From: Bremerella sp. P1
GTDB taxonomy: Bacteria > Planctomycetota > Planctomycetia > Pirellulales > Pirellulaceae
Direction: 5' to 3'
Assembly (NCBI RefSeq): GCF_028748185.1
Contig: NZ_CP118164.1
Coordinates: forward strand, 434,001 to 498,000
Length of the DNA stretch: 64,000 bases
Part shown: piece by piece, positions 46,097 to 54,916 of the stretch
Layout of the letters: every line of letters begins with the position of its first letter
Position numbering within the stretch: position 1 is the stretch's first letter
Program-made: the position numbers and the translations under genes
The notes under the pieces: model-generated
What the model was told of the DNA's origin: nothing
What the model saw: only the letters and a program-made list of their open reading frames with translations
The model's database searches: none

Positions 46097-49000
46097 TTAG
46101 GCTTCCGCCTTCTTGGAACCCTTATCGCGGTTCATCAACCAGATAAGAACCGGGCAAGCGATGAAGACCGTACTGTAGGTACCGGCGATCACACCAATAA
46201 CCAACGAGAACGAGAAGCTATGAATTCCTTCACCACCAATGAAGTAAAGGATCAGCACCACGATCAACGTCGTGAGCGATGTTAGCAACGTACGCCCCAG
46301 GGTTTGGTTGATGCTAATGTTGACCATCTCGCTGGTCAGCTGAGGGCTCTTGCCGCGGACTTCACGGATCCGGTCGAAGATCACGATCGTATCGTTCAGC
46401 GAATACCCGATGATTGTCAAGAAGGCTGCAACGACCGGCAGGCTGATCTTGAATTCCGTCACCTGAAGGAAGCCAAACACAGGTGCCAGCCAAACGCTGA
46501 GAGCAATGAAGCCCAGCGTAACCAACACGTCGTGAACCAAGGCGACCACAGCGGCAACACCAAAGGCGACGCTTTGGAAGCGGAACCAAATGTAACCTAC
46601 GATCCCGATCAGACAGAAACTGATGGCGAAGATCGCCATGGTTTGCATGTCGCCGGCAACCTTACTACCGATCTTGCTGGACGAAGGCCAGACGGGCGTT
46701 GAATCGAGCTTCTTGCTGACCTGCTCCAGAATCTTGGCAGACTCATCCGGCGTGGTCGAAAGCTTGACCGTCCAAGTCGTCTGGCTGACGCGACTGTCAA
46801 CTGGCAGCGGTTTGCCTTCATTGTCCAACAGAGCAATCTCCGGACGAGCGACTCGCAAGGCATCCGCCGCATCGTTGACCAAAGTACGCACGGTTTCGGC
46901 GCTGATACCTTCGTCAAACGACATTTCAGTCTGCGTGTTGAAGCGAGGAGCTTCCGCAGCCGGGGCCAAAGGACCAAGTGGATCAACCGCTGGGCCTTCC
47001 GCAGGAGGCTCTTCCATCGGTGCATCAGCCATCGGCGTTTCGGCAGCCGGAGCTTCTTCCATTGGAGCGGCCGGCTCTTCAGCTGGCTTGTCCTCCATCG
47101 GAGCCTCTTCCATCGGCTTATCATCTGCCGGTGGCGTTTCTGCTGGTTTCTCTTCTGCCGGCTTTTCCTCAGCAGGAGCGTCTTCAGCAGGCTTCTCAGG
47201 TGCCGGAGCTTCTTCTTCGCCGTTGTCTTGCAGAAGCATGTCCATTGAGACGTGCCACGGCAGCATGGCGATCAGGCGGGAAGAAACAGGAGCCAGGAAC
47301 GATTGCATATCACCTTCGGGAGTCTCAGGCTTTTCTTCCGGAGTTTCCGCAGGTGCTTCTTCTTTCTTATCTTCGGTCGCTTCTGGTTCAGGAGCCGATT
47401 CAGCTGGCTCTGTCGTTGTCGGCGAAGTCTCTGGAGCTTCGACCTCAGCTGGCGGCGTGCTCTGAGCACCGGACGCTGCCGCTGGTGGAGCGAAGTCCAT
47501 GTTGTGCATCACCAGCTGGCTTTCGCCATTGGGGCCGGTGAACACTTGCGAGATCCGATCCTGAACAACTTCCACACCCGCGGGAATAGCGCCGGTGTTG
47601 TACCGCAAAGCATCCGTACTGAAGTTCATGCGCAGGTGATCCGCGGTCTGCGTGTCATCATCAACATTCTTAACCGACATCGAACCGGAATCAGCACCGG
47701 TCTCGTCTTGGAATTCGATTCCGTCACCGTCGGTGTTCTGCAGAACAGCCACACCAACTTCGGCGGAGGCCAGACGGTCGATGATTCCTGTCAGGGTTTC
47801 TACGCCGGCCAGGTCAACCTCGGCCGAAGCTCCGGTGCGGTCGGTAATCACGACCTTACCAAGCTGCCCGTACTCCGACATCGAAGTATCTACCTTGTAG
47901 ATACGATCTTCGTAGCCTTCCATTGTCACGGCACTGACCGAGAGGTCAGGCAGGACGCCGGTCAACTTGCTACGAACCTCGGAAATCGCCATCGGTTCTT
48001 CTAGGAAGACCTGAACCGAGGAACCACCGTTGAAGTCAATGTCGAAGATATCTTTGCCACGAACACCAACCCCGATCATGCCGACCAGAATTACTACCAG
48101 CGAGATCATCCCGGCAATCTTCTGCTTGCCGATGAAGTCGTAGCCAATGCTGGAGGCCGACGGCATGAACTTGAGCGTCGAAAGAATACGCTTCTTTTCG
48201 AGAATGTCGAAAATGCCACGCGAAACATAGATCGCGGTAAACATACTCATCAAAATACCGACAAACAAAGTCACGGCGAAACCACGCACCTGGTCAGTAC
48301 CAATGCGGTACAGCACGGCGGCGGTGATGAGCGTCGTAATATTGGCGTCCACAATGGTCGACATGGCTTTGCCGAAACCATTGGAAAGGGCAACTTTCAA
48401 TGAAGCCCCGCCACTTAATTCTTCACGTATACGCTCATAGATCAGCACGTTCGCATCGACCGCCATACCCACGGTTAACACCAAACCGGCGATACCTGGT
48501 AGCGTGAGGTCGGCCTTGATCGCAATCATGACGGCCAAGATCAAGATCAGGTTGAAGACCAGGGCAAAACATGCCACCAAGCCGGCAACTTGGTAGTAAA
48601 TCGCCATGAAGATCAAGACAGCGATCAACGAGATGGTGATCGCGATACGACCTTTACGGATCGTGTCGTCACCCAGCGTAGCGCTGATCTTTTGTTCGCT
48701 GATTGGTTCTTTGCGAAGCACGACCGGCAGCTTACCGCTGCGAAGCACCTGAACCAGGTCAGTCACTTCCTGCTGCGTGAAATCACCGGTGATGATACCG
48801 CGATCGGTAATCATCGCATTGATACGTGGAGCCGAGATCAGGAAGTTATCCATCACGATCCCCAGCTTACGCGGGATGTTCGGCTCACTCAGATTCTCTT
48901 GCGAAAGCCGTCCCATGCGGTTGGCACCATCGACGCCAAACTCGAAGGAGACTGCCGGCTTACCATATTCATCTCGGGTAACGGCCGAGGATGAAAGGTG

Positions 49001-49963
49001 CTTACCACCCAGGCGAGCCTCGGGACGTTCAACACGCATCAGCACTTCAAACGGCACGCCTGGCCCACCGCCACGCACCAGGTGACGTTGGCTATTGAGG
49101 TAGGGCGTCAAGTTTGGGTTGGCGAAGTTAGGCTCGCCCACGGCGCCCCGGGCGTCGTCGTCGACGCGAACCCAGCGGCCGATACGGTTGCCTTCGCGGT
49201 CGGTGACAAAGGTCACACCGATCTGAGCTTCATCTTCCGCACGCGTGATCAGGTAATCGTGGTCTTGCTTGTTGGCCACGATCATGAAGTCGAGCACACC
49301 AGCCTTGGTGATGAGCCGCTTGATCGAGTCGAGGTCCGCCGATTCAGCTTGTGGAACAATGACTTCCACCTGGTTTTCGCCGTAAGGACGAATAACCACC
49401 TCGGAAACACCGGACGGATTGATACGCTTTTGCAGCTGCGTGATCAACTGAGCCGTACCTTGCTCAAGCTGCTTTTCGGGAGTCGTATCAAAGCCTTGGC
49501 TGTCGGAGTCCGAAGCCAAGAGGTCCAAGCTGGCCTGCTCGTCGACTTCGTAAACCAGAATGACACCACCTTGCAGGTCGATACCAAACTTGGGAGGCCA
49601 CAGCAGAAAACAAATCGTGACACTGCACACCAGGCTGGCAAAGATAATGCCCAGCTTACGGCTCAGCTCTGGCAAGCGAATCGCAGTCGCCAACCAAAAG
49701 CCTAAGATGTACGGCACCACAATCGTGAGGAGAATAATCCCCAGCACGTTGAATGTCTCTGAACTTCCAGAACTCGGCGTTTCAGCTGGTGCGGCATCAA
49801 CAGTAGGGACCGGTACTTCAGGCGAAGGCGCTTCTTGTGCCATCGCGGTTGAGCCCAGCCACGAACTTCCGCCGGCGTCCAGCCCGAAATCGACGCCGGT
49901 CAACAATGTGACGGTCAGCGTCAGCACGAGCATGACAGCAAAAATCGTGCAACTCTTCTGCAT
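46097..49963 (-). CDS. secDF: Fused SecD-SecF protein translocase subunit with large acidic insert
   Basis: A 1288-residue fusion of SecD and SecF, proton-driven factors pulling proteins out of SecYEG on the periplasmic side. The SecD part holds the P1 domain and the GLVLTVGMAVDANVLIYERI helix; the SecF part holds the DFNGG start and YSLNDTIVIFDRIREVRGK. Between residues about 830 and 1005 (genomic 46945-47480) the SecF periplasmic domain carries a Pro/Glu/Ala/Met-rich low-complexity insert. The ATG at 49963 has GGAGA upstream and begins the first hydrophobic helix; the frame is open to 50053 just after yajC. It follows yajC directly. Confidence 0.93.
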   Translation of the reverse strand: MQKSCTIFAVMLVLTLTVTLLTGVDFGLDAGGSSWLGSTAMAQEAPSPEVPVPTVDAAPAETPSSGSSETFNVLGIILLTIVVPYILGFWLATAIRLPELSRKLGIIFASLVCSVTICFLLWPPKFGIDLQGGVILVYEVDEQASLDLLASDSDSQGFDTTPEKQLEQGTAQLITQLQKRINPSGVSEVVIRPYGENQVEVIVPQAESADLDSIKRLITKAGVLDFMIVANKQDHDYLITRAEDEAQIGVTFVTDREGNRIGRWVRVDDDARGAVGEPNFANPNLTPYLNSQRHLVRGGGPGVPFEVLMRVERPEARLGGKHLSSSAVTRDEYGKPAVSFEFGVDGANRMGRLSQENLSEPNIPRKLGIVMDNFLISAPRINAMITDRGIITGDFTQQEVTDLVQVLRSGKLPVVLRKEPISEQKISATLGDDTIRKGRIAITISLIAVLIFMAIYYQVAGLVACFALVFNLILILAVMIAIKADLTLPGIAGLVLTVGMAVDANVLIYERIREELSGGASLKVALSNGFGKAMSTIVDANITTLITAAVLYRIGTDQVRGFAVTLFVGILMSMFTAIYVSRGIFDILEKKRILSTLKFMPSASSIGYDFIGKQKIAGMISLVVILVGMIGVGVRGKDIFDIDFNGGSSVQVFLEEPMAISEVRSKLTGVLPDLSVSAVTMEGYEDRIYKVDTSMSEYGQLGKVVITDRTGASAEVDLAGVETLTGIIDRLASAEVGVAVLQNTDGDGIEFQDETGADSGSMSVKNVDDDTQTADHLRMNFSTDALRYNTGAIPAGVEVVQDRISQVFTGPNGESQLVMHNMDFAPPAAASGAQSTPPAEVEAPETSPTTTEPAESAPEPEATEDKKEEAPAETPEEKPETPEGDMQSFLAPVSSRLIAMLPWHVSMDMLLQDNGEEEAPAPEKPAEDAPAEEKPAEEKPAETPPADDKPMEEAPMEDKPAEEPAAPMEEAPAAETPMADAPMEEPPAEGPAVDPLGPLAPAAEAPRFNTQTEMSFDEGISAETVRTLVNDAADALRVARPEIALLDNEGKPLPVDSRVSQTTWTVKLSTTPDESAKILEQVSKKLDSTPVWPSSSKIGSKVAGDMQTMAIFAISFCLIGIVGYIWFRFQSVAFGVAAVVALVHDVLVTLGFIALSVWLAPVFGFLQVTEFKISLPVVAAFLTIIGYSLNDTIVIFDRIREVRGKSPQLTSEMVNISINQTLGRTLLTSLTTLIVVLILYFIGGEGIHSFSFSLVIGVIAGTYSTVFIACPVLIWLMNRDKGSKKAEA

Positions 49964-50053
49964 TGCGTGTCTCCAAGCCGTGGGAACTTCTGCGGTCCCA
50001 GGCAAGTCGTATGGTGGAATATGGAAAGGGGAATTCGTCCTTGAATCGTCCAT

Positions 50054-50428
50054 TTAAGCCGAAGCAGGCGGAGTCTTGGATTCGGCGTTATCGCTCGCTT
50101 TTCCCTCTCGCGAGAGAACAGTGGCAATCGCTCGCAAACGAACCCGCATCTCTGTGCCCGACTTGTCGTCCAGGCGAAGTACAACCTCTTGCTGGTCTTT
50201 CTTCACGCTAACCACCGTGGCGATGATCCCTCCGATCGTCTCCACGCGGTCATTCTTCTTGATCCCTTCCAGCATTTTCTGGGCATCGGAGGCTTTTTTC
50301 TGCTCCGGCCGGATCAACATGAAGTAACCCAACACCAGAATGGCCACGATGGGCAACCAGGTCAGAGGATTCGTGAAACCGCCTTCTTGCGCTAAGATGT
50401 GAACCGGCATAGCCGTCAAATCAAACAT
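50054..50428 (-). CDS. yajC: Preprotein translocase subunit YajC
   Basis: A 124-residue accessory of SecDF with one transmembrane helix (TWLPIVAILVLGYFMLIRP, about 23-42) followed by the conserved QKKASDAQKMLEGIKKNDRVETIGGI region. The C-terminus is slightly extended and charged. It sits directly before secDF (stop and downstream gene adjoin), the usual yajC-secD order. The stop TAA at 50054 touches the open frame of secDF. Confidence 0.95.
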   Translation of the reverse strand: MFDLTAMPVHILAQEGGFTNPLTWLPIVAILVLGYFMLIRPEQKKASDAQKMLEGIKKNDRVETIGGIIATVVSVKKDQQEVVLRLDDKSGTEMRVRLRAIATVLSREGKASDNAESKTPPASA

Positions 50429-50735: not shown

Positions 50736-52091
50736 CTATTTTTGCTCCAGATCGACGGCGACCAGTTCTTTGTCGTTGCGGAAAAAGCCCGTTTGCTGTG
50801 CATAAGCAGGGTGCGTCCAGACAACCTCTCGGCCGAAAGCCTCGCTCGTGGGATCGAGAACATGGAAGCTTCCTAGCGACTCGAAGCCGCTTTTGGTCAT
50901 TTTAGCAATCAACAAATCACCCACTTCGCTGAAAAGCAGGTACCGGTCACTATCCCCAAGTCGCGTCACAAACGCCGTTCCATGCTTGATGAACCTAGTT
51001 TCGTCGGGCACGGTCGCCTCGAACGTGGTCCACAGACGATCCCCGTTTTCGGCATCCACGGCAATCAAGCTACCGACGTTACAGTCACTCCCGTAGACCA
51101 CGCCATCCACAAAAACTGGAGTCGAGGTGCCGCTGTAGACCGAAGTCTTGGGTTCTCCATGCCAAAGCGCTTTTGCCCCCGGATGGCTCTCATCGAGCTC
51201 GATCATGACCGATTGGTTACCAATTCCGCTGGCATACATGCGGTTTCCATCGACCATCGGACGAGCGACTGACATCTCATACCCAGGCTCAATGGGAACT
51301 TGCCAGTACTGCTCACCTGTCTTGGGATTGAGCGAAGCCACCCCTTCCGGGTGATAGATGATCAGCTGCCGCGTGCCGGCCGCTTCAATAATCGATGGCG
51401 GAGCGTAGCCCATCTTCGTATCGAGTGCCTTCCACTGCACTTCGCCAGATCGCTTATCAAGGGCCACAACACCCTGGCCCTCGCCACCAACCATGATGTA
51501 AAGCAAGTCGCCATCGACCAGCGGATGCCCGGCGCACCCCCAGATTGGGATCTTGGCCCCAAAATCATCGACCAAACTCCGACGCCACGCCAACTCGCCC
51601 GTTTCGACCTGCAGGCAGACGAGATCTCCCTCGGCACCCATCCAGTAAAGCAGCTCACCGTCGACGGTCGGAGTGCATCGCGGACCGACGGCATAACTAA
51701 TGGAGTAGGGACGATCGTAGGCATATTCCCACAGTTTTTTGCCGGACTCGGCGTCGAAAGCGAGTACGCGCTCTTTGCCTTGGCGATCCTGGCGAGCACC
51801 AGGGTTGTTTGAGATCTCGTTCGACTCGGACAGATAGTCGGTCACAAAAACACGACCGTTGGCCACCGCTGGGCCGGCATAGCCTCCGGAAATCGGAACT
51901 CGCCACTTTACCTTCAATCCATCATCGGGAATGGCACGGATCACGCCCGACTCGTGGTAAACATCATCACGCTGCGGTCCCATCCATTGGGGCCAATCAT
52001 CCGCAAATACTGCCTGGCCAGCAAAGCAGTTCAGGGCGAGGGAAAACAGAATGGCCAACAGGACTCGCCCAGTCGTGGCAGAGAGATGCAT
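50736..52091 (-). CDS. Exported PQQ-like beta-propeller protein
   Basis: A 451-residue exported protein: signal peptide (VLLAILFSLALNCFAGQAVFA) and a beta-propeller of PQQ-like repeats, each reading like GRVFVTDYL...LAFDAESGKKLWEY and LIAVDAENGDRLWTT. This fold occurs in BamB and in alcohol dehydrogenases, but the latter's catalytic Asp/Glu set is not obvious here. ATG at 52091 has AGGAG upstream and starts the signal; the frame runs open to 52124. It lies between tgt and yajC, possibly a scaffold for outer-membrane assembly (inference). Confidence 0.85.
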   Translation of the reverse strand: MHLSATTGRVLLAILFSLALNCFAGQAVFADDWPQWMGPQRDDVYHESGVIRAIPDDGLKVKWRVPISGGYAGPAVANGRVFVTDYLSESNEISNNPGARQDRQGKERVLAFDAESGKKLWEYAYDRPYSISYAVGPRCTPTVDGELLYWMGAEGDLVCLQVETGELAWRRSLVDDFGAKIPIWGCAGHPLVDGDLLYIMVGGEGQGVVALDKRSGEVQWKALDTKMGYAPPSIIEAAGTRQLIIYHPEGVASLNPKTGEQYWQVPIEPGYEMSVARPMVDGNRMYASGIGNQSVMIELDESHPGAKALWHGEPKTSVYSGTSTPVFVDGVVYGSDCNVGSLIAVDAENGDRLWTTFEATVPDETRFIKHGTAFVTRLGDSDRYLLFSEVGDLLIAKMTKSGFESLGSFHVLDPTSEAFGREVVWTHPAYAQQTGFFRNDKELVAVDLEQK

Positions 52092-52200
52092 CAGAAGCTC
52101 CTTCGGGATTCGGCGCGCAGGCATAGAGGTCGACGTACCCTCTTGGAAGCCGAAGAGCGGTGAGAGGATTCACGAACTTTGCGAAGAATCCAAGAAAGAC

Positions 52201-53367
52201 TCAGTTGCCGGACGCCCAGCCTGCCATCTTTTGCTCGTAATAGGCCTCGAATCGATCTTCTTCAATCGCCTGGCGAGCCTCACGCATCAGCCGCTGGTAA
52301 TATGCCACGTTGTGCAAGGACAACAAGATCGGCCCCAGCATCTCTTTCGCCATGAATAAATGACGGAAATAAGCCCGGCTGAGCCCGGCCACCTGAGGCA
52401 CGCTCTTAGGATCCAGCGGCGTCGGATCTCGCTGATACTTCGCGTTGCGGAGACGAACGGTTCCTTCGTCGGTGAAGGCCAGGGCATTGCGTCCGTTTCG
52501 CGTCGGCATCACGCAGTCGAACAGATCGACCCCGCGGCGAATCCCTTCCAGCAGGTCCTCCGGTCGACCGACTCCCATCAAGTACCGCGGCTTGCTGGTC
52601 GGCAGAGCAGGGCAGGTCGCATCAAGAATTCGATACATCTCCGGAGGCGGCTCACCGACGCTCAACCCGCCAATGGCATAGCCGGGGAACTCCAGTTCCG
52701 CCAAACGCTCGGCACATTCGACGCGAAGACCTTCATCCAGGCCTCCCTGAACGATCGCGAATTGAGCCTGATCCTTACGGGTTGCGGCATCCTGACATCG
52801 CTTGGCCCAGCGAATCGAGCGGTCCATCGCTTCGCGAATCACTTTCGTTTCGTTGGGCAACTCGACCACATGATCAAGGACCATCGCAATATCACTGCCG
52901 AGGTTCTCTTGGATCTCGATACTGCGTTCTGGCGAAAGATGAATCTTGCGACCGTCGATATGCGACTGAAAGATCGCCTCTTTCTCGGTGATCTTTCGCA
53001 TCTGCGCCAGACTGAAGATCTGAAAGCCGCCACTGTCTGTCAGAATGGGGCCATGCCAGTCCATAAACTTATGCAGGCCGCCTAGCTCGGCAACGATATC
53101 ATCGCCTGGCCGCAGCGAGAGATGATATGTGTTGCCCAAGATCATCTCAGCACCGGCCTGACGCACCATGCCGATCTCGAGACCTTTAACCGTTCCCTGG
53201 GTGCCCACCGGCATGAACGCCGGCGTTTGCACGACACCGTGTGGCGTCACGAACTCCCCGCGACGCGCCTTCGACGTGGTGTCTTCATGCTTCAGGTTGT
53301 ACTGAAACCAGTCGACTTCCGGGGGACGATCAAACGCATATTGATCCAAAGTGTCTCGAAGCTCCAT
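52201..53367 (-). CDS. tgt: tRNA-guanine transglycosylase lacking the zinc-site cysteines
   Basis: A 388-residue Tgt exchanging G34 in tRNAs with GUN anticodons for a 7-deazaguanine base. Catalytic Asp111 ([11 protein letters not shown]) and Asp284 ([13 protein letters not shown]) are intact, as are GGLSVGE (234-240) and SRAYFRHL. The family's zinc site (CxCxxC...H) is gone: the segment after PLDP reads KSVPQVAGL (321-329), with only His352 left. Val167 occupies the position of Z. mobilis Cys158, as in eukaryotic queuine-specific enzymes, while Val237 keeps the bacterial residue. The ATG at 53367 is preferred; a GTG at 53379 lies inside the preceding terminator. Confidence 0.9.
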
Positions 53368-53371
53368 GAAA

Positions 53372-53402
53372 AAACCCACGCGGCTAACCGCATGGGTTTG
53401 AG
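53372..53402 (-). terminator. Intrinsic terminator between the TPR/alpha-CTD gene and tgt
   Basis: On the minus strand AAACCCaTGCGG-TTAG-CCGCGtGGGTTT is followed by TTTC. It ends the upstream gene 30 bp past its stop and lies just ahead of the tgt start. Confidence 0.85.
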
Positions 53403-53431: not shown

Positions 53432-54763
53432 TTAGTCGCCGCGAAGCTTCAGATTGTAGGAAGTCAGCTTCTCGCGAACTTCGTTCAAGCTGGTCACACC
53501 GAAGTTCTTGCATTCGAGAAGTTCGTCGCCGGTGCGTCGAACCAGTTCGCCGATGGTCGAGATACCCAAGCGAACCATGCACTTGCGGGCACGAACCGAC
53601 AAGCTGAGCTCGGCAATCGGACGATCCAGCAGAGCCTGTTCGTCTGGCGAGAGCCCCGAGGTGTCGTAGCTGACTTCAGGCGTCGATGGCTTTTCGTTCG
53701 ACATCTGGCCCAATTCCAGGCCCTTGGAACGCAGCATATCGCGAATTTCAATCAGCGACGTTTCGCCGAAGTTCTTACTTGCCAGAAGCTCTTGCTCCGA
53801 GCAGCGGCACAGGTCGCCGAGGGTCATGATGCCCATCTTCTGCAGGCAGTTCCGGCTGCGGACCGACAATTCGAAGTCGGTAACCGGAATGCTGAGAACC
53901 TGCGACATGCGGTCGCGTTTCTTTTGTTCTTCTTCGTCGTAGTACATGTCACCAGATGCTTGGGCATCCTTCATGTACATACGAGCTCGCTTCTCGGTCG
54001 GATACGAATCGAGAACGCGCTGGTAGCAGTGCGTCGCACGATCGTATTCACCACGATCTTCGTGCAGCAAACCAAGGTTCAAAAGAGCACCGACGTGGGT
54101 TGGGAAAACGGCGGCAGCATTCTGGTAAAGCTGCAAGGCCATCGCGTCGTTACCGCGACGATCGTTTTCCAAAGCCAGACCGAAGAGAGCCCCAGCGTGA
54201 CCAGGATCCGCTTCCACGGCTCGCTCGTAAAGAGCAACCACTTCCGCCGGGTTACCGCCCAGCGAAGCGATCGTAGCACCACGCTGATACAGGTAGTTAG
54301 CGGTCGATTCGATCGGGCCGAACATGTTGTCCAGCATCTGCAGGGCCTGCTCGGAATCGCCCTTGCTGCGAAGCGACTCGATGATGCCTAGCTGACAATC
54401 GTCTTTGTTGTAACCAGCAGTCTGAGCGGACTGGAAGGCTTCGATCGCCTTGTCGAAGTCTTGCATGCAGAAGTAGCTGCGACCCAGGTAGTAGTGGGCT
54501 AGGGCTCCACCGTCGGCGGCCGAAAGCGTTTGAACGGCACCGCTGTAGTTACCCATGATGAACTGGCACACGCCCAACCGAACGTTGGTGGCCGGCGAAC
54601 GTTCTTCCGACTGGCCTTCCAATTCGGAAACGCTGTCGCGAAGCGTCGAGAAAGCGTTGTAGTCGCGTCCTACGGTTCGCAGGATCTGACGAATTTCCTC
54701 CGGACCGAAGGAAGAGTTCGTGAGAACAACGCTCTTAAGGTCGAAATCGATTCCTTGAATCAT
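53432..54763 (-). CDS. TPR protein with two C-terminal RNA polymerase alpha-CTD modules
   Basis: A 443-residue cytoplasmic protein. The N-terminal part (about 60-270) has tetratricopeptide repeats such as [22 protein letters not shown] and [19 protein letters not shown]. The C-terminal part contains two alpha-CTD-like helix-hairpin-helix domains (about 288-355 and 376-443). E. coli Arg265 has counterparts Arg302 and Arg391; Asn268 is kept as Asn305 but Lys394 in the second; Gly296 and Ser299 are kept, Lys298 is Thr in both. The ATG at 54763 is preferred because GGAG lies 8 bases upstream. It follows a tRNA-Thr gene on the same strand. Confidence 0.88.
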
Positions 54764-54916
54764 CAACGGGGCTCCAAACGTTTTTGTCGAGGCCCAAGTG
54801 CGAAAGCTCGGGGGAGATAACTGGGCACTATGTTTCCCCGCTTTTCTTAACCAAGTTAAGGACCGGTCCCTACTGGAAGCGAGTCAAATACCCATCCGCA
54901 TTTGGGAAACAAGAAG

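Follow-up and report, generated by a model that had tools for sequence, protein, structure and literature searches.

The window, a 64,000-nucleotide stretch of the Bremerella sp. P1 genome, encodes a tRNA-guanine transglycosylase (Tgt), the enzyme with which queuosine modification of tRNA begins; its Cys-Cys-Cys-His structural zinc site has been replaced by Ser-Pro-Ala-His. Comparison with relatives indicates that this is a real, conserved variant of the enzyme lacking the zinc site, and its sequence features suggest that the variant is most likely an active preQ1 enzyme. We put at roughly 0.8 the probability that the window gene is an ordinary, single-copy, preQ1-inserting orthologue of bacterial tgt that has lost its structural zinc; both the activity and the absence of the metal are what we infer. 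Zinc may thus be dispensable in Tgt, although a zinc-binding domain is one of two TGT hallmarks according to PMC6165067, and PMC9508795 says that TGT needs zinc for activity (citing Chong, 1995). No report of a zinc-less Tgt was found in the literature searched, outside the scope of which most subscription papers lay, and the available extracts of PMC11570991 and PMC13416341 hold nothing on zinc.

The window gene and its zinc-ligand positions

The tgt gene (52201..53379, minus strand) encodes 392 aa from a GTG at 53379; an alternative start, the ATG at 53367, would give 388 aa. In a profile search the product scores 472.9 bits against the equivalog TIGR00430, above the cut-off of 306.75, and 511.1 bits against PF01702. 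The Bremerella genome (6.96 Mb, single contig) contains no other PF01702 match. Residue numbers refer to the 392-aa form; the sequence-only reading counted from the ATG, and the residues that it named, Asp111, Asp284, Val167 and Val237, are all found when so numbered. The nucleophile Asp280 of Z. mobilis corresponds to Asp288 (52516..52518, minus strand) and the general acid/base Asp102 to Asp115 (53035..53037, minus strand), each being the same in all aligned rows with a letter at that position. These and the other Z. mobilis equivalences are taken in part from alignments.

Alignment to relatives places KSVPQVAG (52384..52407, minus strand) where the zinc knuckle CxCxxC would be expected. Ser, Pro and Ala occupy the positions of Z. 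mobilis Cys318, Cys320 and Cys323, and the initial proposal that all three knuckle cysteines are lost is borne out. The fourth ligand position, His349 of Z. mobilis, is kept as His356 (52312..52314, minus strand). As Ser-Pro-Ala-His stands in place of the structural site Cys-Cys-Cys-His, the protein is classed as a zinc-site-less variant and not as a standard Tgt. Its remaining cysteines (195, 222, 256 and 289) are about equally common in zinc-type relatives and therefore do not form a substitute zinc site. All six genomes read of the window's genus (L001, L130 and L142–L145) have Ser-Pro-Ala-His, which excludes a sequencing accident, and KSVPQVAG is identical amongst them save for one Val-to-Ala change in L144.

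The window protein shares with the bacterial Tgt of Z. mobilis and E. coli (EC 2.4.2.29) its fold, the catalytic and base-binding residues, Val233, the yajC–secDF neighbourhood and the partner genes queA, queC, queF and queG. It differs from them in lacking CxCxxC and in having Val for Cys158, and from most other Tgt rows in a knuckle segment shorter by one residue.

Distribution of the variant and number of losses

The ligand positions were read in 299 Tgt rows, one further row (L066) ending before the site. Of these, 253 have Cys-Cys-Cys-His and 46 do not, the latter including L290 with only one column changed, which was left out of the zinc-less count. The Tgt of L290, a planctomycete, has CGGPCC for CxCxxC; its three Cys stand at shifted positions and may form an alternative ligand set. 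The 299 rows do not represent 299 independent genomes, since L053/L164, L045/L183 and L041/L314 are apparently the same contigs. A phylum-wide search found Tgt in 274 of 294 genomes, and the ligand site was read in part of these; for the window's family, the Pirellulaceae, there were matches in 143 of 149 genomes, and 117 were read. Two divergent second copies (L112 and L117, both Cys-Cys-Cys-His) and a weak, unaligned second match (L186) were dropped from the family count. Other phyla were sampled sparsely, and in the genus Gimesia G069 and G227 were left out.

Within the family the zinc site is absent in 37 of the 117 genomes read, and the zinc-less rows span 16 genus codes. No ligand Cys remains in 35 of the 37, while two (L209 and L308) retain the first. 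His remains at the fourth ligand position in 32 and is replaced by Gln in five. In a second genus all four rows are zinc-less and the ligand His is also replaced by Gln; zinc-less rows from 14 further genus codes show varied letters at the ligand positions. Outside the family, the six rows of the Gimesia clade read CDSPGS and L252, from another class, reads CDSYPS; in each case the first Cys and the His remain, while the second and third Cys have gone. A different combination is seen in L069:6001-7083, from a metagenome-assembled genome (MAG) labelled Geminicoccaceae, where SGCPAS (ligand letters SCSN) has lost Cys318 and Cys323, retains the middle Cys and has Asn for the His. Loss of the zinc site in several distant lineages is therefore well supported.

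How many times the site was lost within the Pirellulaceae is less firmly indicated. A quick tree of 151 rows, which included the Gimesia clade and was built with the knuckle and His columns removed, requires a minimum of five changes, three of them forced by starred branches. A tree of 63 Pirellulaceae rows requires four changes, with only one forced by starred branches, and a single zinc-less clade appears in none of its 200 bootstrap trees, the bootstrap being one that had not settled. L252 and L069 are absent from both trees. In an AU test with the zinc-less Pirellulaceae rows constrained to one clade, p was 0.472, so that a single clade is not rejected. Several separate losses inside the Pirellulaceae are possible on the basis of these sequences.

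Structure and a possible substitute for the metal

The AlphaFold2 model of the window Tgt has a mean pLDDT of 90.1, with blocks of 94–97 over residues 311–350, and that of a zinc-type relative (L159) has 93.7; a short knuckle helix is present in both, and such a native-like fold would be expected from the homologues even if the protein were unstable in the zinc-free state. In comparison with the PDB the best 50 rows are all Tgt, and the predicted TIM-barrel fold matches that of Z. mobilis Tgt Y106F (1ozm) with a Z score of 52.7 and 1.4 Å over 365 residues. The zinc-free Tgt of the sequence-only reading thus has in its favour the sequence, its recurrence in relatives, selection (see below) and a confident model, while the absence of zinc itself is a step that we infer.

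The knuckle segment has 13 residues in all 37 zinc-less family rows and in 72 of the 80 zinc-type family rows, and 14 in 155 of 182 other rows. As the shorter segment is already present in zinc-type members of the family, the shortening is not a consequence of zinc loss. Three nearby positions differ between the two types. Residue 333 of the window numbering is Leu, Phe, Tyr or Val in 31/37 zinc-less family rows and His or Arg in 80/80 zinc-type rows; at residue 330, 23/37 have Val or Tyr, against Ala in 74/80; and at residue 359, which follows the ligand His by three places, 33/37 have Ala, against Thr in 72/80. Ala at the 359 position also occurs in zinc-type enzymes of other groups, and this linked change may therefore be partly a matter of inheritance. 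More generally, a single loss in the zinc-less Pirellulaceae tested is compatible with the tree, so that the linked changes may in part reflect shared ancestry.

These changes suggest how the enzyme could do without the metal. The knuckle would retain its fold, with a small hydrophobic core replacing the zinc; the mostly hydrophobic residue before SRAY and the usual Ala three after the ligand His probably help to pack the loop on the C-terminal helices. The packed loop would keep the surface for tRNA and dimer contacts in position, and the zinc-free Tgt could then exchange G34 of GUN tRNAs for preQ1, leaving QueA and QueG to complete queuosine.

Retention of the ligand His in most zinc-less family rows is explained neither by bare loss of zinc nor by a hydrophobic core. 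The frequency (32/37) is above expectation for a useless residue, and one ligand Cys is also left in the Gimesia clade, L252, L209 and L308. On this evidence the window Tgt might still hold zinc, or some other metal, by a different ligand set that could include His356 and residues of the other subunit. This is unlikely, as five family rows have Gln at the His356 position, and the replacements (Ser/Pro/Ala, Thr/Ser/Ser, Leu/Thr/Ser and others) share no common metal-binding pattern. Moreover, the biggest gains of Cys in zinc-less over zinc-type family rows are 9/37 against 1/80 and 7/37 against 2/80, and the window Tgt has neither.

Loss of zinc could also be linked to a changed oligomer or changed tRNA recognition, such as a less tightly bound homodimer, a different partner or another set of tRNAs. 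Trp326, Tyr330 and His333 of the reference enzyme, just past the knuckle in sequence, lie in the dimer hot spot according to PMC5395182, and residue 333 of the window protein, aligned with Trp326, is strongly unlike between zinc-less and zinc-type rows. The other two hot-spot positions argue against such a change: the Tyr330 equivalent is Tyr in 35/37 zinc-less rows and the His333 equivalent is His in 37/37. The equivalents of Arg286 and Arg289 are kept as well, and a changed oligomer or tRNA set is accordingly quite unlikely.

A naturally zinc-free Tgt that keeps its ordinary role would have a parallel in the glutamyl-tRNA synthetase (GluRS) of the Burkholderia thailandensis type, also a tRNA enzyme naturally without zinc ligands where its relatives carry zinc; its zinc-free domain was functional inside E. 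coli GluRS (PMC4381286). GluRS is an unrelated protein, and its zinc-free function is experimental, whereas that of Tgt is predicted here. A broader proposal, to which we give a little less than even odds, is that zinc is dispensable in Tgt and that fully active zinc-free enzymes arose repeatedly and independently in planctomycetes and in one or more other lineages, with the knuckle turned into a hydrophobic mini-core; in the Pirellulaceae, shortening of the loop by one residue would have come first and made the loss tolerable. Zinc-type and zinc-less orthologues at 60–70% identity form a natural series on which the part played by zinc in fold, dimer and tRNA binding can be examined.

Base specificity, queuosine pathway and maintenance of the gene

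Two residues bear on the base that is inserted. Val171 (52867..52869, minus strand) occupies the Cys158 position, where Val is usual in Tgt of the Pirellulales with or without the zinc cysteines. Val241 (52657..52659, minus strand) occupies the Val233 position and is the bacterial residue that interferes with queuine (PMC3660597; PMC6165067; see also PMC4425180). From the first of these residues the sequence-only reading had suggested that queuine or another base may be inserted in place of preQ1, after the manner of the eukaryotic enzymes. Human QTRT1 does have Val where Z. mobilis has Cys158 and Phe where it has Tyr106. Neither residue is distinctive. Outside the family, 144 of the 180 rows readable at the Tyr106 position have Phe. 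In the family, Val fills the Cys158 position in 34/36 zinc-less and 77/78 zinc-type rows that can be read there, the rest having Leu, and being near-universal in the zinc-type rows it is not tied to zinc loss; outside the family it occurs in 27/180 rows, 23 of which are among the nearest named loci and one of which is the same-order genome G167. A single eukaryote-like residue that is common throughout the Pirellulales rows is thus no guide to queuine use.

The Val233 position points the other way. A queuine-type enzyme would have a small residue (Gly) there; the window protein has Val241, and no family row readable at this position departs from Val. Eukaryotic QTRT1 has Gly232 where the window Tgt has Val, and has kept its zinc (PMC6165067). 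The Z. mobilis enzyme has been studied by mutation (PMC3660597): Cys158Val raised the KM for preQ1 about 10-fold and lowered kcat 3-fold, with queuine still no substrate, and Val233Gly opens space for queuine, yet neither this mutant nor the double mutant inserted it.

The gene content of the genome also fits the use of preQ1. A host of a queuine-type enzyme would be expected to lack the preQ1 route and QueA and to have an uptake route; queC, queF, queA and queG are instead present and PF02592 is absent. QueA acts downstream of preQ1 insertion. In the profile search QueC, QueF, QueA and QueG matches were above their cut-offs and there were three PTPS (QueD-type) matches. A QueE-like gene adjoins queF; it falls below the TIGR03365 cut-off, which only one of 14 control genomes passed. 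The search for queC/D/E/F and queA/G proposed with the sequence-only reading thus recovered all of them, queD as a QueD-type and queE as a QueE-like gene. No match to YhhQ (PF02592), the one transporter family included, was found in this genome by profile search. With Val233 kept, Val158 shared with zinc-type rows and the preQ1 route, QueA and QueG in place, insertion of queuine or another base is very unlikely, and preQ1 insertion by the window Tgt is the preferred reading.

The pathway was surveyed in 28 genomes, 19 with zinc-less and nine with zinc-type Tgt. QueA, QueC, QueF, QueG and PTPS/QueD-type matches are present in all 28, although for G334 the best QueC match is fragmentary and a stop interrupts QueA of G321; QueE-like matches are present in 27 of the 28, none above the cut-off. 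YhhQ was found in four (G319, G321, G337 and G357), all zinc-less. In these four QueC is strongly diverged (E 1e-30 to 1e-40), which sets them apart from the Bremerella genome, and extra salvage of preQ0/preQ1 is possible in them.

General zinc sparing was considered for Bremerella and rejected on the evidence of one protein, ribosomal protein L36, which retains the zinc-type pattern CxxC...C...H. The same pattern is present in 18 of the 19 genomes with zinc-less Tgt; G334 and five of the nine zinc-type genomes were not readable by the simple pattern used.

Purifying selection on zinc-less Tgt is as strong as on zinc-type Tgt. Omega was 0.018–0.049 in 12 zinc-less pairs from four groups, against 0.027–0.058 in three zinc-type pairs, values that are rough for the pairs with dS above 1 (5/12 zinc-less and 1/3 zinc-type). 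Catalytic, base-binding and tRNA-contact residues are conserved: the equivalents of Asp102, Asp280, Gln203, Gly230, Glu235, Arg286, Arg289 and His333 recur in all zinc-less family rows readable at these positions. That the window Tgt is a decaying, inactive enzyme, as might be supposed where the ligands of a supposedly essential metal have gone (PMC9508795), is hardly tenable in view of these omega values and kept catalytic residues, the single copy, the pathway kept in its own genome and the occurrence of zinc-less Tgt in 16 genus codes of the family.

The gene neighbourhood was also compared. Downstream of tgt lies yajC (50054..50428, minus strand; PF02699, 78.7 bits), followed by a secDF fusion (46097..50053, minus strand; PF02355, PF22599 and PF21760), and the order of tgt and yajC is the same in related loci. 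A yajC or secDF gene lies downstream on the same strand in all 10 zinc-less planctomycete loci of at least 6 kb, which represent three clades only, the window's genus (four), the next genus (four) and the Gimesia clade (two). The corresponding counts are 14/32 for zinc-type planctomycete loci and 40/44 for zinc-type loci of other organisms, and neither YajC nor SecDF was found in the 3.6 kb of sequence downstream of the zinc-less L069 Tgt. The neighbourhood therefore backs the orthology of the window tgt without being universal. Between tgt and yajC is a gene for a PQQ/BamB-type beta-propeller (50736-52124, minus strand), found there also in L142, L143 and L145 of the window's genus; the next genus, represented by L146 and L147, lacks it at this place. 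Just upstream of tgt, a gene at 53432-54766 (minus strand) encodes TPR repeats fused to two RNA polymerase alpha C-terminal domains, and a gene of this type is present in several related loci.
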